From Bacillota bacterium (GTDB taxonomy: Bacteria > Bacillota > SHA-98 > UBA4971), in assembly GCA_030024085.1 (NCBI GenBank), contig JASEJE010000004.1, positions 62,001 through 126,000 on the forward strand: a stretch of 64,000 nt of DNA, in the 5' to 3' direction. Positions within the stretch are counted from its first letter, which is position 1; every line of letters starts with the position of its first letter. The notes beneath the pieces are model-generated. The model saw only the letters and a list, made by a program, of their open reading frames with translations. It was not told the DNA's origin and ran no database searches. The position numbers and the translations under genes were made by a program. Below, piece by piece: positions 33,406 to 44,782 of the stretch.

Positions 33406-34176
33406 TCATCGACAGAGGTAGCGGGGCTCCTTGCGGAGTTTTTCTACCAGGAACTCTATCATAGGTAAGGAGCTAATCAACCGCAGAGTTGAGGCTCCAA
33501 CCTTACCTATGCGCATAATACCCAGATGCAATAATTCCTCGTCTATACGTTCAAAACGCCTGGGGGTGCCCCAGTCATGCAGGTACAGACGTTCGACGCG
33601 TCGCTTCCCCTCATAATCAATGACAATGGTGTTCACCGGCTCCTTTTGCATGTGATACGGTACCTCAGCGAGCTCTTCTGCTGTATGAATCGTAGTATTG
33701 GAGGCCTGGCCGACACCGATCAAGAGAATGAAACCACCCTTTTGCGCCAGACGATAGTATGGCGATTGCGCTCCACACGGAGTGAGAGAACGCTCGTGCC
33801 CCTCGATCAAGGCAGCGGCAATCGCGCCTATGCCACAGACTGAATGCGTGGGATGCAGGCTCCTTCGAGCCCCCGGCCTTTTCATAAACTGCGTGGGAAT
33901 ACGCCCTGTCCAGCAGGGCGTATTCCTGACGTCGAAGACCGGCGGATTGTTTGGACCATCCTCGCGCCTTCCTGTGAGCGTGGGCACAAGTACCGTGCCC
34001 TCTGGACCGGTGGCGTCGAGCAAGGCGTCAATTACGGTGTCGGCGCCGCCAACCACGTACCCAAAGCTGCTGAGTGAGCTATGGACTAGTACGCTATCAC
34101 CCTCGCCGATACCAAGAGCCTTGAGGTTGGGCACGATCTCATCCTTGGTGACACCATGAATCGGGTTCACGGGCAT
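33406..34176 (-). CDS. AAC(3)-family N-acetyltransferase
   Basis: A 256-residue protein of the aminoglycoside 3-N-acetyltransferase/YokD fold. Signatures are SVLVHSSLSSFGYVVGGADT, the DVRNTPCWTGRIPTQFMKRP segment, RRSLHPTHSVCGIG and TPCGAQSPYYRLAQKGGFIL. ATG 34176 follows GGGGGGTG. It is last in the amino-sugar cluster, so an amino sugar or similar amine is a more likely substrate than an antibiotic. The usual acetyl-CoA-linked residues are present, but no resistance role should be assumed. Confidence 0.85.
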   Translation of the reverse strand: MPVNPIHGVTKDEIVPNLKALGIGEGDSVLVHSSLSSFGYVVGGADTVIDALLDATGPEGTVLVPTLTGRREDGPNNPPVFDVRNTPCWTGRIPTQFMKRPGARRSLHPTHSVCGIGAIAAALIEGHERSLTPCGAQSPYYRLAQKGGFILLIGVGQASNTTIHTAEELAEVPYHMQKEPVNTIVIDYEGKRRVERLYLHDWGTPRRFERIDEELLHLGIMRIGKVGASTLRLISSLPMIEFLVEKLRKEPRYLCR

Positions 34177-34263
34177 ACGCACCCCCCTCAGACATGCGCA
34201 GGTGACCCTGATCAAACATACACATCGTGTGAGAAATCCTTGGAGGGGCACGTGCCAATCATG

Positions 34264-35274
34264 TCATGCCTTGATGCTTCCCGTGGCGGTAAGGGTGGTC
34301 ACGATGCGCTCACACTCCGCTGTAGTGACCGGCAGTCCGGCGGATTGTGCTCCAATTTGCCATGCGCCGACTATGGCAGGAAATCTTGGTTTGTGAACCA
34401 CATCACCTCCCAGCGAATGAGCCAGGAGCGAACGGAATCTGTCCAAAAGGATTGACGAGCGGAAGACGCCACCACCGTAACTTACGCGGTGTCGATCTGC
34501 TCGCAGCCCCAGCTTGTTGAACACGGCCTGTGCCAGGTCCGCGAGGTGCTCGGCCGCACATTCGAGAATCGCCCGGGCCATAGTATCGCCAGCAGCGGCA
34601 GATTCATCTACCACCTGTCCCAGGCGTGCGACCTCCACCCTTCCCAGCCTGCCGCTGTAGAGTGCCCCGTGTACAGATCTTAGGTCAGGAACCCCGAACG
34701 CTTGCGGGATTCTTTCTTGCAACGTTGTCTTGGCCACAACCCCGTCATGAGAGCGAGTTGCAGCCGATAATGCCCTTATGCCGATCCAGTATCCGGATCC
34801 TTCGTCACCCATTAGATACCCCCATCCACCGGCCCAGCGCTCATCCCCTTCTTGGTTCCGTCCGTAGGCAACAGAACCTGTCCCGCTGATGACGATGACA
34901 CCCGGTTCTCCGCCGGTTGCCCCCTGCCAGCATGCCACCGAGTCGGGGACCACAACCACATGGTCAGCAGCTATGCAACCACGGATGATCTCTTGCATGC
35001 GTCTGGTGCCACCGCTCATGCCGAAGCCCGCGGCCAACAAGTGTACCCGGTCTGCATCCAGGCCTGCATCCATCAAAGCCGCGTCCAAAGCTGAAGTTAC
35101 AGCCCGGCGGCACCGCTCTGGCCCACCGGGTTCGCTGATGTGATCGGCAGGGCCGGCTACACCGCTGCCCAGCACGTCACCACCCGGGGTAGTCACAATG
35201 CAAGTTGTGCTGCTCTGCCCGCCATCCATTGCTATGACGACGGGGATCTCAGGGGCTATGCTCGCAGATTTCAT
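34264..35274 (-). CDS. BadF/BadG/BcrA-family sugar kinase, N-acetylhexosamine-kinase-like
   Basis: A 336-residue member of the actin-fold ATPase family that includes N-acetylglucosamine kinase. The phosphate-1 motif is AMDGGQSSTTCIVTT, the adenosine region VIVISGTGSVAYGRN is followed by GGWGYLMGDEGSGYWIG, which is diagnostic for these sugar kinases, and the C-terminal part has VSYGGGVFRSS. It most likely phosphorylates the sugar taken up by the cluster, giving the substrate for NanE. Specificity (ManNAc or GlcNAc) is inferred from the neighbour. Confidence 0.85.
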   Translation of the reverse strand: MKSASIAPEIPVVIAMDGGQSSTTCIVTTPGGDVLGSGVAGPADHISEPGGPERCRRAVTSALDAALMDAGLDADRVHLLAAGFGMSGGTRRMQEIIRGCIAADHVVVVPDSVACWQGATGGEPGVIVISGTGSVAYGRNQEGDERWAGGWGYLMGDEGSGYWIGIRALSAATRSHDGVVAKTTLQERIPQAFGVPDLRSVHGALYSGRLGRVEVARLGQVVDESAAAGDTMARAILECAAEHLADLAQAVFNKLGLRADRHRVSYGGGVFRSSILLDRFRSLLAHSLGGDVVHKPRFPAIVGAWQIGAQSAGLPVTTAECERIVTTLTATGSIKA

Positions 35275-35283
35275 TTCTTCAGT

Positions 35284-36012
35284 TCATCTCCCCCGGCACA
35301 GCAGCGCTCCGGGTGGTTCTGCACCCAATTCCGTCGCCGCAGGGACAAACTGGCGGATCCGCCATTCCAGATCTGTAAGAGCGGTTCCTACCACCACGGC
35401 GTAGGCGCCACGAGCCAGAGCCGCCCTGACGTGTTCAGGGGTGTGGAAACGCCCTTCGCCAACTACGGGACACGCGACGGTCGCAACCAGGCGACTGACC
35501 AGCTCCAAATCCGGTCCCTTGTTCCGAGCCTCCTCTGTATATGGAACATAGCCGGACATGGTCGTGGCCACCAGGTCAGCACCCAGGCGGGCGGCTTCTA
35601 TCCCTTCCTCCAGTGTAGCGATATCGACCATCACCGGCTTATTGAGAACGTCATGAATGTATTCGACCAGGCATTGGAGAGATTCATTGGCTGGCCGCGA
35701 CCGGTGGGTACCCTCTATGGCAATGATATCCGCTCCTGCAGCCGCAAGAGCTTTCGCCTCGGCCCGCGTAGGGGTGATGTAGGCTTCTGCTCCTTCGTAC
35801 CGCACTTTGTGGATCCCGATGACTGGGATGGTGACCCCGCGCTCCTTCATGGCAAGTACGTGCTCGGGCGAATTCGCCCGAATCCCAACCGCACCTGCCC
35901 GGTGCGCTGAAAGCGCGAAAGCCGCCATAATCCCTGCATCTAATAAGGGACTGCCTGGCCAGGCTTGACAGGATACGACCAGGCCGGAACGTAGAATATC
36001 TTTGACCGCCAA
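35284..36012 (-). CDS. nanE: N-acetylmannosamine-6-phosphate 2-epimerase
   Basis: A 242-residue TIM-barrel NanE, which converts ManNAc-6-P to GlcNAc-6-P. Signatures are GLVVSCQAWPGSPL, AVGIRANSPEHV, IPVIGIHK, GADIIAIEGTHRSRP, VMVDIATLEEGIEAARLGAD, then TTMSGYVPYTEE. TTG 36012 is chosen because GGGAGGG lies 7 bases before it; TTG 36030 overlaps the upstream stop. It places the cluster in amino-sugar catabolism. Confidence 0.9.
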   Translation of the reverse strand: MAVKDILRSGLVVSCQAWPGSPLLDAGIMAAFALSAHRAGAVGIRANSPEHVLAMKERGVTIPVIGIHKVRYEGAEAYITPTRAEAKALAAAGADIIAIEGTHRSRPANESLQCLVEYIHDVLNKPVMVDIATLEEGIEAARLGADLVATTMSGYVPYTEEARNKGPDLELVSRLVATVACPVVGEGRFHTPEHVRAALARGAYAVVVGTALTDLEWRIRQFVPAATELGAEPPGALLCRGR

Positions 36013-36026
36013 ACGCTTTCCCTCCC

Positions 36027-36683
36027 TCAATATCCGAGCCTCTGGTATCGTTGTATTTCCGCCTGGTATCTTTCCAATCCCCCAGGAACGTTGGCACTAG
36101 TGTAAATTGTGGGCATAAAGCCGTCGGCCTCCATCTTGGCAACCGCCTCGGCAACCACGGCCCACATCACGACGGCCGATATGACCCCCGACGACGGGCA
36201 AGCCCGGCGCCCCAGCCGTTCAAAGGTCAGCAGAGCATCGCCGGCCGCGCCACCGATATCGATCACAAGATCTGCAACGTCTCTCAGCAACCTGCCCGAC
36301 TCATGCTCCACAGGAGCGTGAGCCGCCTGTGCATTCGAGGTCAAAGCTATCACCAATACCCCTCGCTCGCCGGCCAGCAACACGGCCTCGATAACTTCCC
36401 TGGCCCTTCCGCTAACCGAGGCCACAAACAGCACATCCCCGCGGCGGACGAGAGCCGGATTGCGAACATCTTCGATCGTGACCAGGCGCAGCGCTGCGAG
36501 CCCTCCTGCACGGCTCACGAGCTCGGCCCCTAACAAATGTCCGTGATCCAGAAGATGCAGGCATCCGCCCTCTTCCAGGGTCCGTGCGGCATGCCGCGCT
36601 GCTTTTTGAATTGTCTGCCGCTGCTCCTCGCGGACTTCCTGGATTAGCTCAAGTATCGCGTCGAAATAGCGCTCCGATGACAT
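36027..36683 (-). CDS. SIS-domain phosphosugar-binding protein (COG4821-like)
   Basis: A 218-residue single-SIS-domain protein. Features are RYFDAILELIQEVREEQRQT, GGCLHLLDHGHLLGAELVSR, RGDVLFVASVSGRAREVIEA and VIALTSNAQAAHAPVEHESG. It is predicted to bind a phosphorylated sugar, as an isomerase or a sensor. It resembles the uncharacterised COG4821 group more than NagB or GmhA. ATG 36683 has GGGGG about 8 bases upstream. No NagA or NagB is in the window. Confidence 0.8.
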   Translation of the reverse strand: MSSERYFDAILELIQEVREEQRQTIQKAARHAARTLEEGGCLHLLDHGHLLGAELVSRAGGLAALRLVTIEDVRNPALVRRGDVLFVASVSGRAREVIEAVLLAGERGVLVIALTSNAQAAHAPVEHESGRLLRDVADLVIDIGGAAGDALLTFERLGRRACPSSGVISAVVMWAVVAEAVAKMEADGFMPTIYTSANVPGGLERYQAEIQRYQRLGY

Positions 36684-36685
36684 TC

Positions 36686-37480
36686 TCAAACCCCCGCTTC
36701 GCTAGAGACACTGTTCGCTTTTCCTACGAATATCTGGATGTGATTGTTGGCAAAGAAATCGCGGTATGACTGCGGTGGCTCCTTATCGGTAATGACCACG
36801 GACACCCTCGTTAGTGGTGCTACCTCGGCAAAACATATCGTGTCAAACTTGGAGTGATCCGCGACCAAGATAACTTGCTCCGCCGCCTTCACCATCACCC
36901 GGTGGACGCGGGCTTGCTCCAAGCGAGCGTCGGTCAGGCCGTGTTCTATGGAGATGCCCTTGGTCGATAAGAACGCCTTGTCCACGTGGTAGCAAGCGAG
37001 AGCATCCTCGGTCTCTCCGCCCAGGAAGGACATGCTCTCACCGTCCAGAACGCCGCCGCTGCTGATTACGTGGACATTGTGATGCGCCAGTTGTTCCACT
37101 GCCGCCCAGGAGTTTGTCACCACGGTGACATCCCGGAGTTCACCAAGGTGCATCATCAGGAACGAGATGGTACTGCTGTTATCGATCATGATCGTGTCAC
37201 CGGGCTGGATCAGCTTTGCCGCCATTCGACCCAGCATCTGCTTTTCGTCGCTCAGCATCGTCCGGCGAACTCTCACGGGAAGATCGTGGCCTCGCCCATA
37301 GCCCGGTGATATGGCCCCTCCGTGGGTGCGAACCAGCAGGCCCTCCCTCTCCAGCTTTGCCAGATCATTGCGGATCGTGGCCGCTGTGACGTTCAGCCGC
37401 TCTTTCAGTTCCAGCACAGTGATTGCACCGTGCTGTTTCACAAGAGCAAGGATGTCGCGGCGCCTCTGTTCTGGTAGCAT
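36686..37480 (-). CDS. DeoR-family transcriptional regulator
   Basis: A 264-residue DeoR-type repressor. The N-terminal helix-turn-helix reads RRDILALVKQHGAITVLELK and VTAATIRNDLAKLEREGLLV, then RTHGGA. The C-terminal sensor domain is of the phosphosugar-binding type (IMIDNSSTISFLMMHL, VILVADHSKFD). It probably represses the cluster until a sugar phosphate accumulates. ATG 37480 has AGAGG upstream. Confidence 0.92.
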   Translation of the reverse strand: MLPEQRRRDILALVKQHGAITVLELKERLNVTAATIRNDLAKLEREGLLVRTHGGAISPGYGRGHDLPVRVRRTMLSDEKQMLGRMAAKLIQPGDTIMIDNSSTISFLMMHLGELRDVTVVTNSWAAVEQLAHHNVHVISSGGVLDGESMSFLGGETEDALACYHVDKAFLSTKGISIEHGLTDARLEQARVHRVMVKAAEQVILVADHSKFDTICFAEVAPLTRVSVVITDKEPPQSYRDFFANNHIQIFVGKANSVSSEAGV

Positions 37481-37732
37481 CAGCCTCTTTCCTCCCGAAA
37501 TGGCATCCGTGGATTCATGCTGCCTTCCTTTCCTTTGTACGACCTCACACAGGCTTGTCAGTGCTGTGACCGGGACTCGCCACGAATGCTCGACGCTTTT
37601 CTCCGCTCATCTTCCCACAGAGTGTTTGCGTGACACCGGTCTGCAGGGAAGAGCATCCCCTGCCAGGCCAGCATGGACCGCCCCTCTGACGCTCTTGCGG
37701 CTGGGGGCGAAGACAGCGACAAGGCCCGCTCC
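37481..37732. other. Spacer between the secreted-hydrolase gene and the DeoR gene
   Basis: 252 bases. Contains a short hairpin GCAGGG/CCCTGC (37643-37648, 37658-37663). An internal promoter for the catabolic genes could lie here but no clear boxes were seen. Confidence 0.45.
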
Positions 37733-39763
37733 TCAGAACCACAGTGATTGGTCCACCGGGAAGCTGAGCACCCGAATGAGATGTCCTGCAGAGACAGGGA
37801 GCGTTTCCTTGTTACGCATCCCTTCACGCCTTGCAAATTCTTCGATGAGGCTTGCGGCAGCTTGATCGTTTCCCACCTGGTAAGCCGCCATAGCCCACCA
37901 GAGATACTGGCCATTGTCGGCGACGCCAGAAGGCATCGGCTTGCGTCGCTTCACGTAGAATCGATCATAGAGCATGTCGAAAATACCGCGATCCAACGAG
38001 TTATCCTTGTTTCCCGCTACAGCCAGAAAAAGGATGTTGGAAAGAGCATCGGGATACCAGGTATCCATCCTGGTGTGCTTCGTCCCATCACGGCTGATCG
38101 ACATCGCATAATAACCCTCGTCTGTCAACCAGAAGTCGTTCCGCAACCCGTCTATGGTCTTGTCGGCGAGGAAGGCAAAAAGGCTGGCATATGCGGTATC
38201 CTCCAGCGTTGAAGAAATGCTCCAACCTGCAGCAAGCCCTAGCCAGACTTCGGTGTTGTCCATCAGGTATTTCACCGGCCACCCGGGTTTCGCGAAGGTG
38301 AGGCCGTCCCGCCCGTATGTGAGGTCTATAGCCCCAAGTGCCTTGAGAACATAAGGATACATTTGGACGAGGAAATCGCGGTCCCCGGTTACCCGGTAAT
38401 ATCTCCACAGCGCGAGGATGAAGGTCGCTGCGTACGAATCCGTTGAATCATAGTCCCCCGTGGGCCTGTAGTTCGGGTAAGAGCCGGCATAGTCATATAC
38501 GGTACCGTCCGCGTTCATGTGGCTTACATACCACTCGAGCCAGCGTCGAGCCGGCGTGAGGAAATCGGGAGCTTGCGTAAGCTCATAGGCGCGTATCAGT
38601 CCCAGCGCGGCAAAGTTGGAAAAGTACGGGATGATGCGTCCCCTGTTTCCTCCGCCACCGAGAACTATGGCTCCATCAGGGTTCTGGAACTCTACGATGT
38701 GCCGGGCCATCCACGATATGTTTTCCAGCATGCTCGCATCAGGCGACTGGACCGCTTTGCCTGCTCCCTCGGCCCCTGCCGTGGCTCCTGCCGCTCCTGT
38801 CGTCGCTACAGGTCGTCTGGGCGCCGTTTTGCTTTCCCCGGTGATAAACGACCAGGTATAGTCGGCTGGCAGGCTGGTACCGTTTTCATCTAGGATCCCA
38901 CCCGGACCGCCCTTGACCACTACCGTGTACTTCGAATGCTGTACCAGCTCATGGTGAGGCGAGATCAAAATCGCTTGTTGACCGGTGGAGTAGTACAGCA
39001 GCGCAGGTACCTCGTGGCCTGTAGAATCTTGCACGCGTACGGTGGTCGAGTTGACGGTTGATGCATCAACGGGTTTGTTCAAGAAAACCCGCAAGACAGA
39101 CCGTATTGACACGCCGACCGCGAGGTCGCCCGGTTCCACCCATTCTACGTGGAATGGTTTTTTCACCCCGGTCACCACCTTGACATCGTCTATTATGAAT
39201 TCGGCATCGCCGCTGTCAGGCTCAATCGTGGGCTTTATCACGAATCGGTAAATCTCGGTGCCCTTGAGTTGCCGCGCTATGTCGGAGAGCAGGATGGAGA
39301 CATGCGTCCACTTCCCCTTCGGGACCCCGCTTGCGGAAACGGGGCCCCAGAAGAAACCGCTATGCTCTCGCGAAAAAACCTCCACCACGACAGCCTTGTA
39401 CTTGGCGCTCCCACCTGCATAGAACCAGAAGTCGAGCGCCGAGTCCTGCTCAGTAAAGTGGCAATTCTTGATGAAGGCGAGACCCACCTCCGGCTGACTG
39501 GGATTAGCCGATGCGCGCCCCATCAACGCTTGTTTCCCGCTGTGGACATTGCTGGTGGTAATGGACTTGTTGCCGTTCTTGCCGTTTGTCCACCAGTCCC
39601 AGGTATCGCCTGACTCGAAGTCGTCGTAAAAGATCACCTTCTCTGCCTGCGCCCCTTGGGCAATGGTCCAGGCTGGAGCCCATAGAAGGAGCGTGACCAG
39701 TGAAACACCCAGCGCCATGCGGTGCATGAATCTGAAGATCCTAGGAGTTCTAGCAATCCTCAC
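37733..39763 (-). CDS. Secreted multidomain protein: carbohydrate-binding-like domain, Big_5 domain, six-hairpin glycosidase-like domain
   Basis: A 676-residue secreted protein. It has a signal peptide (GVSLVTLLLWAPAWTIAQGA), then a beta-rich domain opening KVIFYDDFESGDTWDWW that resembles carbohydrate-binding modules (about 40-200). An Ig-like Big_5 domain (about 205-315, PADYTWSFITGES at its end) and an Ala/Gly linker follow. The helical C-terminal domain (about 345-676) has repeated aromatic-rich helices such as LEWYVSHMNADGTVYDYAGS, DSTDSYAATFILALWRYYR and NGQYLWWAMAAYQVG, like alpha/alpha six-barrel hydrolases or lyases. The enzyme class is not assignable. GTG 39763 follows AGGAGG. Confidence 0.75.
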   Translation of the reverse strand: MRIARTPRIFRFMHRMALGVSLVTLLLWAPAWTIAQGAQAEKVIFYDDFESGDTWDWWTNGKNGNKSITTSNVHSGKQALMGRASANPSQPEVGLAFIKNCHFTEQDSALDFWFYAGGSAKYKAVVVEVFSREHSGFFWGPVSASGVPKGKWTHVSILLSDIARQLKGTEIYRFVIKPTIEPDSGDAEFIIDDVKVVTGVKKPFHVEWVEPGDLAVGVSIRSVLRVFLNKPVDASTVNSTTVRVQDSTGHEVPALLYYSTGQQAILISPHHELVQHSKYTVVVKGGPGGILDENGTSLPADYTWSFITGESKTAPRRPVATTGAAGATAGAEGAGKAVQSPDASMLENISWMARHIVEFQNPDGAIVLGGGGNRGRIIPYFSNFAALGLIRAYELTQAPDFLTPARRWLEWYVSHMNADGTVYDYAGSYPNYRPTGDYDSTDSYAATFILALWRYYRVTGDRDFLVQMYPYVLKALGAIDLTYGRDGLTFAKPGWPVKYLMDNTEVWLGLAAGWSISSTLEDTAYASLFAFLADKTIDGLRNDFWLTDEGYYAMSISRDGTKHTRMDTWYPDALSNILFLAVAGNKDNSLDRGIFDMLYDRFYVKRRKPMPSGVADNGQYLWWAMAAYQVGNDQAAASLIEEFARREGMRNKETLPVSAGHLIRVLSFPVDQSLWF

Positions 39764-39879
39764 CCCTGAACCCTCCTGCTCAGCATGTTCCAACGAACCT
39801 CAAACCTGACCAACGCTTCTTTGTACCTTTCACCCGTCGTCACATCATTGCAGTTGAGGGCGACCCGACTTGTGCTCTC
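39764..39879. other. Short spacer upstream of the secreted-hydrolase gene
   Basis: 116 bases; only the ribosome binding site for the secreted protein is recognisable. Confidence 0.4.
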
Positions 39880-40713
39880 CTACGCTTTGATTGCACCGCT
39901 CGTAAGCCCTTCGATAAACGTCCGCATGCTGGCGAAAAAGAGTACCACCAGGGGAAGCGAGGTGAGCACGTAGGCAGCCATCACCTGTCCGGTTTCTGGC
40001 TGCCAGATGCTCGTGCGAAAATAGGCAATGCCGATGGGAATCGTCTGCAAATGCTCGCTGGTGATGGTCACCAAAGGCCAGATCAGGTCATTCCATTGCG
40101 CCAGAATGTTCAGGATGGCGACTGTGCTCAGGATGGGCATGGAAAGGGGAATGGCAATTCTGAAGCAACTCGTAAACTCGGACGCACCGTCCAGTCTGGC
40201 GGCCTCGAAGAGCTCCTCTGGAATTGACGCGAAGAAAGTACGCAAAAAGAGTATTGAGAAAACCTGGCCTCCGGCTACGTACGGCAGAATCAACACCCAC
40301 CTTGTGTCGAGCAAGCCCAGGCGTTTGACCAGGACAAACCGGGTGATCAGCGTGAGTGTGCCTGGGATCATCACGATCCCCAAGATTGCGTAGAAGAGCA
40401 CCTCCTTGAGAGGAAAGGCGAAGCGGGCAAAGACATACGCAGACATGGACGAAACCACGAGGATCAAAGTCGTAGCCACAGCGCATACGATGATGCTGTT
40501 CGCGATGTAGGGCGCAACCCTGGCCCATGCGAAGACATAGTTCTCCCAGTGGAATGGCCGCACCAACTGCCAGAAGTATAACTCAAACTGGCTTTGTGTC
40601 TTCAAAGAAGTGATGAACATGAAGATGAAAGGGTAAAATGTGAGGACCACAATGGTCCATAACAGGACGTGCTTTGCAAGTTCGACTCGGGAGTTTCCCA
40701 CCTTCGCGCCCAC
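39880..40713 (-). CDS. Sugar ABC transporter permease (MalG-like)
   Basis: A 277-residue binding-protein-dependent permease with six membrane helices. The family start FYPFIFMFITSLKTQSQFEL and the EAA loop EAARLDGASEFTSCFRIAIP are clear, ending FIEGLTSGAIKA as in MalG-type CUT1 permeases. GTG 40713 follows GGGGGGAG; the longer frame from 40797 would overlap the preceding gene. It forms the pore with the next gene. No ATPase is in the cluster, so a shared MsmX-type ATPase encoded elsewhere is likely. Confidence 0.92.
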   Translation of the reverse strand: MGAKVGNSRVELAKHVLLWTIVVLTFYPFIFMFITSLKTQSQFELYFWQLVRPFHWENYVFAWARVAPYIANSIIVCAVATTLILVVSSMSAYVFARFAFPLKEVLFYAILGIVMIPGTLTLITRFVLVKRLGLLDTRWVLILPYVAGGQVFSILFLRTFFASIPEELFEAARLDGASEFTSCFRIAIPLSMPILSTVAILNILAQWNDLIWPLVTITSEHLQTIPIGIAYFRTSIWQPETGQVMAAYVLTSLPLVVLFFASMRTFIEGLTSGAIKA

Positions 40714-40793
40714 GATTGCTCCCCCCACGGGAACATACTCGCATGCCCAACCGAAACGAACCCTTCGGGCCGACGACAGACCGCTCTTGAAAG

Positions 40794-41708
40794 TCAACTT
40801 TTGGCCTGATACTCTATGCCCGACTTCAAATACTTCATGTTGGCGTACGTGAGTCCCATTATAGTCACGAACATGCAGACTCCAATAGCCGAGGCGTACC
40901 CCATCCTCCCGTATTTGAAAGCGTTATCGTACAGAACAAGCCCCGGCACCATCGTAGCAAACCCAGGGCCGCCCTTTGTCAGTATCAATTGCACGCCAAA
41001 GCCTTGAATTCCGCCGATAAACCCCATTATGACGTTGAGCTTTACCTGGCCCATGATAAGGGGAAGGTCTACCTTGAAGAAACGGATGATCCCATGTGCC
41101 CCATCGAGTTTGCAGCAATCCAGGACCTCCTGCGGGATATTCTGCAACCCGGCCAGGTAAATCAACACGCCTATACCGCCTACCCACGGAAACCCCATAA
41201 ACATCAGAGCATATAAGGCGACTTTGGGATCACCAAGCCATTCCCTCGCCAAAGATCCGAGGCCTACTGCCCGGAGCAGCTGGTTTGCAAGCCCGTATGT
41301 CGGCTCGTAGATGTATCCCCATAGGAGCATTCCCACAATGCCAGGGATAAGGGCGGGGAGCACAAGGAGGACCCTGTATATATACTTCCACCGTATGCTC
41401 CTCAGACTAAAGAGAACTTCCGCGACGAATATCGGCATGACCAGCCCCACGCCCAACCCGAAGGCCATCAGCTTCAACATGTTAGCAACGGAAGTACGAA
41501 GCACCCAATCGTCGAAAAGGATCTCCCTATAGTTTGCTAGCCCTATGAAGCGGTTCACATAAAACCCGTCCCAGTCGAAGAACGAGTGGTAAACGGCGGA
41601 AACGGCAGGATAGTATTCAAACAGCAAAAGCAGCACGAACGTGGGCGCAAGAAAGAGATAGACGAACTTCTTCCGCTCGATTTCTCTCCGAACCGTCCTG
41701 CGCTTCAC
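40794..41708 (-). CDS. Sugar ABC transporter permease (MalF/UgpA-like)
   Basis: A 304-residue CUT1 permease with six helices. Key regions are FLAPTFVLLLLFEYYPAVSA, YHSFFDWDGF and the cytoplasmic loop LDCCKLDGAHGIIRFFKVDL, where cysteines replace the usual EAA residues. GTG start at 41708 with GAGGGGAG upstream. It pairs with the MalG-like permease 80 bases downstream and with the binding protein upstream, from which it is separated by an R2 element. Confidence 0.92.
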   Translation of the reverse strand: MKRRTVRREIERKKFVYLFLAPTFVLLLLFEYYPAVSAVYHSFFDWDGFYVNRFIGLANYREILFDDWVLRTSVANMLKLMAFGLGVGLVMPIFVAEVLFSLRSIRWKYIYRVLLVLPALIPGIVGMLLWGYIYEPTYGLANQLLRAVGLGSLAREWLGDPKVALYALMFMGFPWVGGIGVLIYLAGLQNIPQEVLDCCKLDGAHGIIRFFKVDLPLIMGQVKLNVIMGFIGGIQGFGVQLILTKGGPGFATMVPGLVLYDNAFKYGRMGYASAIGVCMFVTIMGLTYANMKYLKSGIEYQAKS

Positions 41709-42226
41709 TGCCGCTCCCCTCGCTTGCAGTTTCTGCGTCGCTCCGCAGGCTCCCCAGTCGCACCTTGCTCCGGCAAGTACTATACCGACCGAGGGCGCCC
41801 ACAGCGTCCGTCAGTACATCTGGCCGCAGCCTCCCGGCACAGGCCGGACCAGGCTAGATTTCGAAAGCCCCAGATACATTCACTAATGCGCCAGGAGCTA
41901 AGTGAGGATTCGTTAGTTCCTCCCAGTTTGCCAACATCCGGTGGGTTGCCGGTGTTGCACTCGGGGACACCCCCCAAGCGGGGCCCGCTTCGCCAAAATC
42001 CGGCCCGCAGGCGAGTGGCCGGATTTTCACACCCCTCGCGCAATCACCGGCAACCCCTCCCAAAAGTCGGGAGCATTTCTGCACGAGACTGTTGATATCC
42101 TCCACTTTATGGCAACGCAGCTCGGTGGAATCCCGGGGAACGGTCGCCGTTTGCGGCCAAACTGGCAGCTACTGGGGAAAATCAACAGTCTCCTGCACCC
42201 TCACTTAGCCGGAGACTACCTAGGAC
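41709..42226. other. Element-bearing gap between binding-protein and permease genes
   Basis: 518 bases between two genes of one operon. Most of it (41897-42209) is the R2 copy C; the rest has no gene. In related clusters these genes are usually adjacent, so the gap looks like an insertion. Confidence 0.6.
41897..42209 (+). repeat. Dispersed repeat R2, copy C, MITE-like
   Basis: A 313-bp unit bounded by an exact 11-bp inverted repeat GCTAAGTGAGG (41897-41907) and CCTCACTTAGC (42199-42209). Inside are GGTTGCCGGTGTTGCACTCG, CCCCCAAGCGGGGC, CACCGGCAACCCCTCCC, and a second inverted pair GCACGAGACTGTTGAT (42081-42096) with ATCAACAGTCTCCTGC (42181-42196), 15 of 16 matching. No open frame for a transposase. 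Confidence 0.75.
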
Positions 42227-43609
42227 TTATTTGCTCGGTGCACCCCAGTTGTTCTGCGATGTCCAATTGTTCTCGCGGGCAAGCTGCTCTGCCGCTCTCT
42301 TCATCTCGCGGCCTAAAGTCTGCACAAACTTATCCATAGTAAGACCGCCCGAGAGAAGAAGTTGCAGATTCTTGAACTTCATGTCGCCAAATGGGCCCGT
42401 GAGCGAGAGCTGGATTCTGGGATTTGCCTCGGGCGCCACGAACGCCTTAACCTTTGGGTTGTCCGGCTCGACACCCTTGATGATCGGGGGCATATTGTAC
42501 GCCTTCTCCAGGACCGTGGCGTTCTCCGGCGACGTCATGAACTGAAGGAAGTCAATCGCCAGGTCCAAATTGCCCCTCTTCACAGTAGCTGCCGGGATAC
42601 TCCAGGTTATACCGGCCTCCCCCGGTCTGCAAGTCGAGCCTGTGGCATACGGCGAGGTTTCCCGTGTAATGTCGGGGAACACGAAGATGCCGTAGTCGAA
42701 GCCCCGATCTTTGTTCTCTTCGATCGACTGGAGGGCCCAACTCCCAGCCATAAAGAACGCTGCCTTCCCCGTCATCCAGAGACGGCTGTGATCCGTCGCG
42801 CCCACCGCTCCTGCCTGCCAATACTCAGACCATTTCTTCAAGAACTCATACGGTGCCCGGAATTGTGGATCATCAACTTTGATCAGGTCAAGCTGGATTG
42901 CCCTTACAAGCTCGTTCAAATCAACCTGCCCGTTGGGCTGCAAGACGTCGAGCTTCGGCACCCAGGTCTGCCACATCGTGCCCTCTATATAGCCGACGCT
43001 CCAGACCTCTGGACCACCTGTAAACGTTGCAGCCTGCGGAATATAGTCGGCCGCTTTCAGCTTCTCCGCCACCTGGAACCATTCTGCCCACGTTTTTGGT
43101 GGTGCGAGACCCAGCTTCTTGAACACGTCCTTGTTATAGAAGAACGCAAACGATGACCAGTTCACGGGAATGCCAATGAGTTTCCTCGTGACAGGATCTC
43201 TGCTTACAAAGCTGTCCAGTGACCCCGGCTCGAACATATCTTTCCATATGTTGCCTGTGTATGGATTCACCTTACTAATATACTCATCCAGGGACACAAT
43301 GAGCCCCTTTCGAAAGTCCTCAGCTGCCCAGTTATTCTGCATGATATCAGGGGGATCCCCGCCTGCAAGCTGGGTCAGGTGCCAGGTATGGTACTCTGTA
43401 CTGGGAATGGTCATATATTTGACGGCTACGTCGGGATGGGATTTCTGATAACGCTCTATAACTATATCCAACTGCTTGTTGTAGACGTCCAGCATGTAGT
43501 GGGCAATGGTAATTTGCCTCTTGGCAAACGCTGCTCCGTCCAGAGGTAGGGCAAGCAGGACCAGCACTAGAACCATCACGCCGGCAAAAACACACCAGCG
43601 CCGTTTCAT
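42227..43609 (-). CDS. Extracellular sugar-binding protein of an ABC transporter (family 1)
   Basis: A 460-residue solute-binding protein for carbohydrate uptake. The signal peptide is strongly hydrophobic (VFAGVMVLVLVLLALPL) and has no lipobox cysteine before the mature part, although Cys6 lies earlier. Family marks include ITIAHYMLDVYNKQLDIVI, GGDPPDIMQNNWAAEDFRKG, VNWSSFAFFYNKDVFKKLGL and FFMAGSWALQSI. ATG 43609 with GGAGGG upstream. Aromatic-rich sites fit an oligosaccharide ligand; identity unknown. Confidence 0.92.
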   Translation of the reverse strand: MKRRWCVFAGVMVLVLVLLALPLDGAAFAKRQITIAHYMLDVYNKQLDIVIERYQKSHPDVAVKYMTIPSTEYHTWHLTQLAGGDPPDIMQNNWAAEDFRKGLIVSLDEYISKVNPYTGNIWKDMFEPGSLDSFVSRDPVTRKLIGIPVNWSSFAFFYNKDVFKKLGLAPPKTWAEWFQVAEKLKAADYIPQAATFTGGPEVWSVGYIEGTMWQTWVPKLDVLQPNGQVDLNELVRAIQLDLIKVDDPQFRAPYEFLKKWSEYWQAGAVGATDHSRLWMTGKAAFFMAGSWALQSIEENKDRGFDYGIFVFPDITRETSPYATGSTCRPGEAGITWSIPAATVKRGNLDLAIDFLQFMTSPENATVLEKAYNMPPIIKGVEPDNPKVKAFVAPEANPRIQLSLTGPFGDMKFKNLQLLLSGGLTMDKFVQTLGREMKRAAEQLARENNWTSQNNWGAPSK

Positions 43610-43816
43610 CTTGAACCCTCCTCATTCCTTTTTTGTGACTGCCCGCACCGGAAGCACCGCTCTCCAGAATTCGAAAAACCAACCACTACTGCCCTTCACC
43701 GGTGTCTCTTGGCGTAACCAACCTTGCCCCAAGAGTCGCTCTGATCTGACAAACCTCCTGTTTGCCCCAGCTACCACCCCCTCCAGTCAGAATAGTCGGC
43801 CCCAACCCGTCGACCG

Positions 43817-44782
43817 TCATGCTTCAGGTACAGCCCCGTACTGGCATCCTTTAGCTCTCAAGAACTCCTCATAGCGCCGGTATAAGTTGCGGGCTGCTGG
43901 CCACACGGAGTTCGGGCTGAGGAAATGGGAGAACTCGAACGTAATCACCTTGCTAACGTACGGTTGCACGACGTCTAGCTTGTAAACCAGCTTCCGCCAG
44001 TCGATGGGAGGGAACTTGATGGGCATGTCGCGGTCGAATGTCTCCAGGTTCGACCACAGCTCGATCTTGTGCCTTTTCGCGATCTCAGCAGTCGCCCGGA
44101 CGAACTCTTCAAGTCTCAACAATTCAGAGCTCCCATCCTGGAACGCACAATAGTCCACAAGGCCCTCCAGGCGGCTGAAGATCTCCGACCACTGACGGAC
44201 GTGTTCTTCGACCGTACGTGGAAAGGCTCTCTCCCCAAAGGCGACTACGTGCATTGGGTCCAGGCGGCCATGGAAATAGGGCGAGATCAGGATGGGAAGA
44301 CCTGAGAGATTTCGGATCTCTTCAGCCAGGCTTGCGTGGATATCAATGATCCTGCAGCTAGTATCACCCGTCTCGTGGGGCAAGTACCAGCCGGCAAACG
44401 CAGGCAATGAACCGTACCTATCAAGCGCCTCACGGACAAACTCTCTGTTGATGTCCACTTCCATCTGCCAGTCGTTACGGTACCAGAACCGGTTGGAATC
44501 ATAGAGCCCCAGGAATAGACGCATACCGTTCTGTGCTGCAAGCTCCAGGAAGAGGGCGACCATATCCTGGTAGACCGGCAGAGTAGGCACGAACCTCGAC
44601 ACTGCCTTCGAAGGGCAAGCGAGCTTTTCGCCCAGCCCGGAACGGATGACAATGACCGTGTCGATTCCGGCCCGTTTCAAGGTTTCAAACTCCGTTGCCC
44701 ACTCCTTTTTGCCCCAATTCGAAGAGGGGATATCATAGGTGATCTCATCCAGGAATGTTCCGGTGATCGCTTTGTAAACCAA
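43817..44782 (-). CDS. DUF4434 protein, TIM-barrel glycoside-hydrolase-like
   Basis: A 321-residue protein without signal peptide. It begins KAITGTFLDEITYDIPSSNW and has WATEFETLKRAGIDTVIVIR, FLGLYDSNRFWYRNDW, FAGWYLPHETGDTS and PILISPYFHGRLDP. This is the DUF4434 pattern, distantly like glycoside hydrolase TIM barrels; the Glu in YLPHET is a candidate catalytic acid. TTG 44782 follows AGGAGGGG. It is the first gene of the minus-strand cluster and may cleave imported oligosaccharides in the cytoplasm. Biochemical function is not established to my knowledge. Confidence 0.75.
   Translation of the reverse strand: MVYKAITGTFLDEITYDIPSSNWGKKEWATEFETLKRAGIDTVIVIRSGLGEKLACPSKAVSRFVPTLPVYQDMVALFLELAAQNGMRLFLGLYDSNRFWYRNDWQMEVDINREFVREALDRYGSLPAFAGWYLPHETGDTSCRIIDIHASLAEEIRNLSGLPILISPYFHGRLDPMHVVAFGERAFPRTVEEHVRQWSEIFSRLEGLVDYCAFQDGSSELLRLEEFVRATAEIAKRHKIELWSNLETFDRDMPIKFPPIDWRKLVYKLDVVQPYVSKVITFEFSHFLSPNSVWPAARNLYRRYEEFLRAKGCQYGAVPEA

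Follow-up and report, generated by a model that had tools for sequence, protein, structure and literature searches.

Organization of the gene cluster

The window analyzed here is a 64,000-nucleotide stretch of DNA (G000:C44:62001-126000) from a 3.11-Mb, 96%-complete Firmicutes genome. Using gene calls and family profile searches, we found ten collinear genes on its minus strand, running from position 44782 down to 33406; the profile searches bore out the gene positions and families given in a first-pass annotation of the sequence. The family assignments were strong for all ten genes, except in the C-terminal region of the secreted protein.

The first operon gene (43817..44782) encodes a DUF4434 protein (Pfam PF14488, 197 bits against a cut-off of 30), for which a signal peptide was not evident. 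Its best PDB match was 4H41, a 'putative alpha-L-fucosidase' (2e-70), to which it is clearly homologous over the full length, the window copy being distinguished by its linkage to NanE. The protein is probably a cytosolic glycosidase-like TIM barrel; a literature search found no paper naming DUF4434 and no characterized activity. The next three genes encode a solute-binding protein (SBP; 42227..43609; SBP_bac_1, 116 bits) and two MalFG-like permeases (BPD_transp_1), one UgpA-like (40794..41708) and the other UgpE-like (39880..40797), and together specify a CUT1 importer. No substrate-specific model matched the SBP. The cluster contains no ATPase gene; UgpC-type candidates are encoded on contigs C16 (489.5 bits), C2 and C1, so that the lack of an ATPase gene beside the importer genes is unremarkable.

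The secreted protein (37733..39793) consists of a signal peptide, a beta-sandwich, a Big_5 Ig-like domain (56 bits) and a C-terminal helical region. This last region gave weak Pfam matches to 6-hairpin glycosidases and a weak match to MmpH (7QSJ), and a low-confidence structure model (pLDDT 38) placed helices at residues 351-656; the modeled region is likely an (alpha/alpha)6-barrel glycosidase. The neighbors of homologs of the secreted protein's domains showed no common theme.

Downstream lie genes for a DeoR-family repressor (36686..37480; DeoRC, 165 bits, and HTH_DeoR), which is AgaR-like with a score of 188.6 bits, below the AgaR cut-off of 260; a COG4821/UPF0309 SIS protein of a short subfamily (36027..36689; PRK02947, 175.7 bits against a cut-off of 135); NanE, the N-acetylmannosamine-6-phosphate 2-epimerase (35284..36030; NanE, 162 bits; PRK01130, 253.6 against 189); and a BadF-type N-acetylhexosamine kinase (34264..35274; BcrAD_BadFG, 135 bits), whose best PDB match was the MurNAc/GlcNAc kinase 8ZO3 (5e-32). 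This NanE is the only one in the genome and, when aligned with 4UTT, retains the GIHK, DI and EGR motifs with the active-site Lys, Asp and Glu. The cluster ends with a loosely attached gene (33406..34176) for an AAC(3)-like acetyltransferase (Antibiotic_NAT, 198 bits; hereafter AAC), the start of which is better placed at the ATG at 34176, preceded by the ribosome-binding site GAGGGGGG, than at the listed GTG at 34251.

Overlaps of 4 bp join the two permease genes, the DeoR and SIS genes and the SIS and NanE genes, and only 9 bp separate NanE from the kinase; the metabolic core is therefore tightly coupled. Wider gaps occur between the DUF4434 and SBP genes (207 bp), the SBP and permease genes (518 bp), the secreted protein and DeoR genes (252 bp) and the kinase and AAC genes (87 bp). 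No Rfam element was found in the cluster, and no convincing shared palindrome that could serve as an operator was found upstream of the DUF4434, SBP and DeoR genes. The SBP-permease spacer (41709..42226) is largely occupied by two dispersed MITE-like repeats, an outer element of ~210 bp with the ends CTAAGTGAGG...CCTCACTTAG and, nested within it, an inner element of ~110 bp with the ends GAGACTGTTGAT...ATCAACAGTCTC and GTGCAG flanks. These repeats have 49 matches in the genome, and the corresponding gap in a congener measures only 38 bp.

The conserved core and the two end genes

This congeneric genome, G180, keeps the order from the SBP gene through the two permease, secreted protein, DeoR, SIS and NanE genes to the kinase gene intact, at 77-91% identity, and by this sequence comparison the conserved core consists of these eight genes. 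The DUF4434 and AAC genes, which form the two ends of the cluster, are not intact within the G180 operon. At the 5' end, upstream of the SBP gene (L032, upstream of 8977), G180 has only an N-terminal stub, the first ~18 DUF4434 codons (LAHKTITGAFLDEIAYDI; window, VYKAITGTFLDEITYDI), fused to the spacer preceding the SBP gene at the position of the window gene. The DUF4434 gene was therefore once there and has since been lost; the remnant is a gene-loss scar. At the 3' end, the 360 bp between the G180 kinase gene and the contig end contain no AAC gene. The G180 AAC (88% identity) is encoded on a different contig, where AP_endonuc_2 and Gfo/Idh genes adjoin it; no close copy of this AP_endonuc_2 gene is present in the genome of the window.

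The first-pass annotation had proposed that the acetyltransferase adds a step to a pathway without nag genes. Under this proposal, the cell would import and phosphorylate mannosamine or another free amino sugar, and AAC would N-acetylate it before or after phosphorylation, yielding ManNAc-6-P for NanE. The catalytic TxxHxAE motif is intact, and AAC follows the kinase gene by 87 bp, a gap in which no inverted repeat was found. Moreover, of 398 genomes sampled in the phylum, 10 encode close AAC homologs (at least 44% identity), and nine of these also encode NanE (P = 8e-9, counted by genomes); counted by families, 9 of 16 AAC families occur with NanE, compared with 22 of about 100-140 (P given as 7e-5 to 1e-3, hypergeometric, and as 0.002-0.008). 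The close AAC homologs and window-like NanE are distributed over nearly the same set of genomes, and within the genus both genes are present in G000 (the window's genome) and G180 and neither in G049, G088, G123 and G366. AAC homologs also adjoin CUT1 operons, in the orders CUT1-AAC-LacI-AP_endonuc_2-Gfo/Idh (G302), SIS-AAC-CUT1-GH66-GH15 (G068) and CUT1-amidohydrolase-AAC (G001 and G278), the amidohydrolase being NagA-like.

However, AAC lies outside the congener's operon, on a different contig, and was found near NanE in none of the other 39 neighborhoods compared, and the proposed acetylation step is weakened because of this; in family f9, moreover, the AAC gene stands between those for CheX and a polysaccharide deacetylase. 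Free mannosamine is also a rare natural substrate. We consider this acetylation scheme unlikely but conceivable, in view of the co-occurrence of AAC with window-like NanE and the position of AAC homologs beside CUT1 operons; an acetylation step in a pathway without nag genes, as first proposed, fails, given that nagA and nagB are encoded in the genome (see below).

Alternatively, AAC might be unrelated to the function of the operon, for example as an amine or aminoglycoside acetyltransferase that lies downstream by chance. Its lack of conservation with the operon, its membership in the Antibiotic_NAT family and the 87-bp gap are consistent with this explanation, which is quite possible, if somewhat doubtful. 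AAC shares the sequence family and the His/Glu catalytic motif with AAC(3), YokD and FrbF, but it scored far below the cut-off of the AAC(3) resistance models (139.8 against 270 bits), and its homologs occur in sugar-uptake contexts. YokD, BA2930 and FrbF, which have the AAC fold, exhibited no activity on aminoglycosides (PMC8956665). The repeated CUT1 contexts and the co-occurrence with NanE also argue against a chance association. AAC reads as an accessory enzyme of amino-sugar metabolism rather than a fixed part of the operon, to which its link is recent or incidental.

NanE neighborhoods and the COG4821 SIS protein

NanE was found in 43 of the 398 phylum genomes, and we compared 40 distinct neighborhoods, including that of the window, within a radius of 6 kb. 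A BadF kinase was encoded within 6 kb of NanE in 15 of the 40 neighborhoods and a COG4821 protein in nine, directly adjoining NanE in eight (the window, L032, L033, L034, L035, L086, L098 and L101). Many of the other NanE neighborhoods contained ROK kinases, and a NanA-like protein was found near NanE at only 4 of the 40 loci. These are counts in a sample; with the genomes treated as unrelated, such numbers would be very unlikely under random adjacency in genomes of thousands of genes. The two closest other DUF4434 proteins are likewise encoded near NanE, at 5.1 kb in G171 (82% identity) and at 1.2 kb in G040 (43% identity), in the order DUF4434-ROK-NanE in the latter; the distance in the window is 7.8 kb. 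A neighborhood search for DUF4434, COG4821, NanE and AAC(3), which the first-pass annotation had suggested as a check, yielded no second instance of the exact set, although the COG4821-NanE and DUF4434-NanE pairs do recur.

Because the SIS and DUF4434 proteins recur near NanE, both are testable. The repeated position of COG4821 beside NanE makes ManNAc-6-P and its relatives concrete candidate substrates, and the partnership points to ManNAc-6-P, GlcNAc-6-P or derivatives for the SIS protein. The link between DUF4434 and NanE suggests ManNAc-containing glycans as the DUF4434 target.

The closest match of the SIS protein, by both sequence and fold, was NagS (PDB 9EOL), followed by 3CVJ; a literature search for COG4821 found no papers. 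NagS, described in 2025, is the GlcNAc-6-P dehydratase of Streptomyces (SCO4393; PDB 9EOL), in which H53, R64, E94 and D179 are required and S91 and N228 contribute (PMC12680351). In an alignment of 49 sequences, the SIS family comprised three kinds: a NagS-like kind with S/T91, E94 and N228 in most members; a second kind with V91, D94 and H228, encoded at several loci together with BadF kinases and DUF6259 proteins; and a short kind (window, G180, G190 and G068), in which H53, R64, S119, S121, D179 and N228 are retained but the segment carrying S91 and E94 is deleted. Of the required residues of NagS, the window protein lacks only E94. Its shortened segment carries an invariant Glu, E73 in the window numbering, which, judging from the alignment, might stand in for the lost residue. 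A scan of the genome contigs with the short subfamily yielded no more than two loci, each of which was in the set beforehand.

These observations bear on the possibility that the SIS protein is a NagS-type dehydratase, converting GlcNAc-6-P or ManNAc-6-P to 6P-chromogen I. The two proteins share the COG4821/UPF0309 SIS family, the fold and most active-site residues, including the equivalents of H53, R64, S119, S121, D179 and N228, and NagS is the best match of the SIS protein in both sequence and structure. In contrast to NagS, the window protein, at ~30% identity, belongs to a short subfamily and is encoded in a catabolic operon with NanE. Since it has lost S91 and the essential E94 together with the segment around them, as have the G180, G190 and G068 copies, the SIS protein is not a NagS, and NagS homologs at 26-36% identity outside Streptomycetaceae were inactive or had negligible activity on GlcNAc-6-P (PMC12680351). 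A NagS-type reaction is therefore very improbable. The structure model of the SIS protein (pLDDT 60) supports a NagS/GmhA fold only. The protein was also rejected as a MurQ; no MurQ model matched it, and a true MurQ is encoded on contig C2.

The second kind of SIS protein (V91/D94/H228) belongs to another recurrent cluster type, with a CUT1 importer, a BadF kinase and a DUF6259 protein (L036, L037, L039, L041 and L042), and the genome of the window has this type as well, on contig C65. A large cluster at L033 (G190:C1, 2081-15180) encodes a NagS-like COG4821 protein that has E94 and a second, short one, together with two BadF kinases, NanE, DUF4838, GHL10, DeoR and CUT1 proteins.

A proposed route for amino-sugar salvage

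The first-pass annotation had also noted that NanA, NagA and NagB were absent. Since nagA (326 bits against a cut-off of 226) and likewise nagB are encoded on contig C2, this holds for NagA and NagB in the window only, and ManNAc-6-P therefore has a normal exit. NanA, by contrast, was found nowhere in the genome; the single DHDPS-family protein is DapA (359.6 bits), with a score of 131 against a cut-off of 382 for the nanA model. Such genome-level absences are results of family searches and, as the genome is 96% complete, are not absolute.

The lack of NanA bears on whether the cluster degrades sialic acid by the nan pathway. It resembles nan (sialic acid/ManNAc) clusters in NanE, an N-acetylhexosamine kinase, an ABC sugar importer and entry at GlcNAc-6-P, and the presence of NanE and a kinase would fit such a function. 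In contrast to those clusters, the kinase beside NanE is of the BadF type and not the ROK type of the nan pathway, DUF4434 and COG4821 proteins are present, the regulator belongs to the DeoR family, NagA and NagB are encoded on another contig and NanA is missing. As NanA is absent genome-wide and NanA-like proteins were rare near NanE in the phylum, the operon does not serve sialic acid catabolism, within the limits set by a genome that is 96% complete; we regard this function as exceedingly improbable. Uptake and breakdown of a ManNAc-type sugar, as originally suggested, is the best reading of a cluster with NanE, a kinase and a CUT1 importer in a genome without NanA.

It is thus reasonably probable, from the gene content, that the operon scavenges a glycan containing ManNAc, or a closely related amino sugar, and feeds the GlcNAc pathway. 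Wall teichoic acid linkage units or secondary cell-wall polymers would be natural sources of such glycans. In the following scheme, which starts from the gene families, the conserved core and the recurrent neighbors, we infer all substrates and reaction directions. The secreted protein would trim the polymer outside the cell, and the oligosaccharides would enter through the CUT1 importer, driven by a UgpC/MsmX-type ATPase that is shared and encoded elsewhere, to be cut in the cytosol by the DUF4434 protein. The BadF kinase would then form ManNAc-6-P, NanE would turn this into GlcNAc-6-P, and NagA and NagB, encoded elsewhere, would convert it further to fructose-6-P. Repression of the operon would fall to the DeoR protein, and the short COG4821 protein may handle or sense a sugar 6-phosphate of the pathway, in a role other than that of the NagS dehydratase. 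ManNAc is suggested as the sugar by NanE, which acts in both directions.

The operon is probably a coherent amino-sugar salvage system of a known general kind, and is unusual in two uncharacterized, recurrent parts, the SIS and DUF4434 proteins. More tentatively, and with considerable doubt, the short COG4821 protein could be a novel enzyme whose substrate is ManNAc-6-P or one of its substituted derivatives, with a chemistry unlike that of NagS and MurQ, and DUF4434 could be a family of ManNAc-releasing glycosidases; together with NanE, they would then constitute an undescribed, sialic acid-independent pathway for ManNAc glycans.

The operon also has its kinase type and end products in common with the MurNAc/GlcNAc recycling cluster on contig C2, although its SIS protein is not MurQ and the recycling cluster lacks NanE. 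That cluster (L114, G000:C2, 9812-16549) encodes NagB, NagA, a BadF kinase, MurQ, a second BadF kinase and a GHL10 protein.
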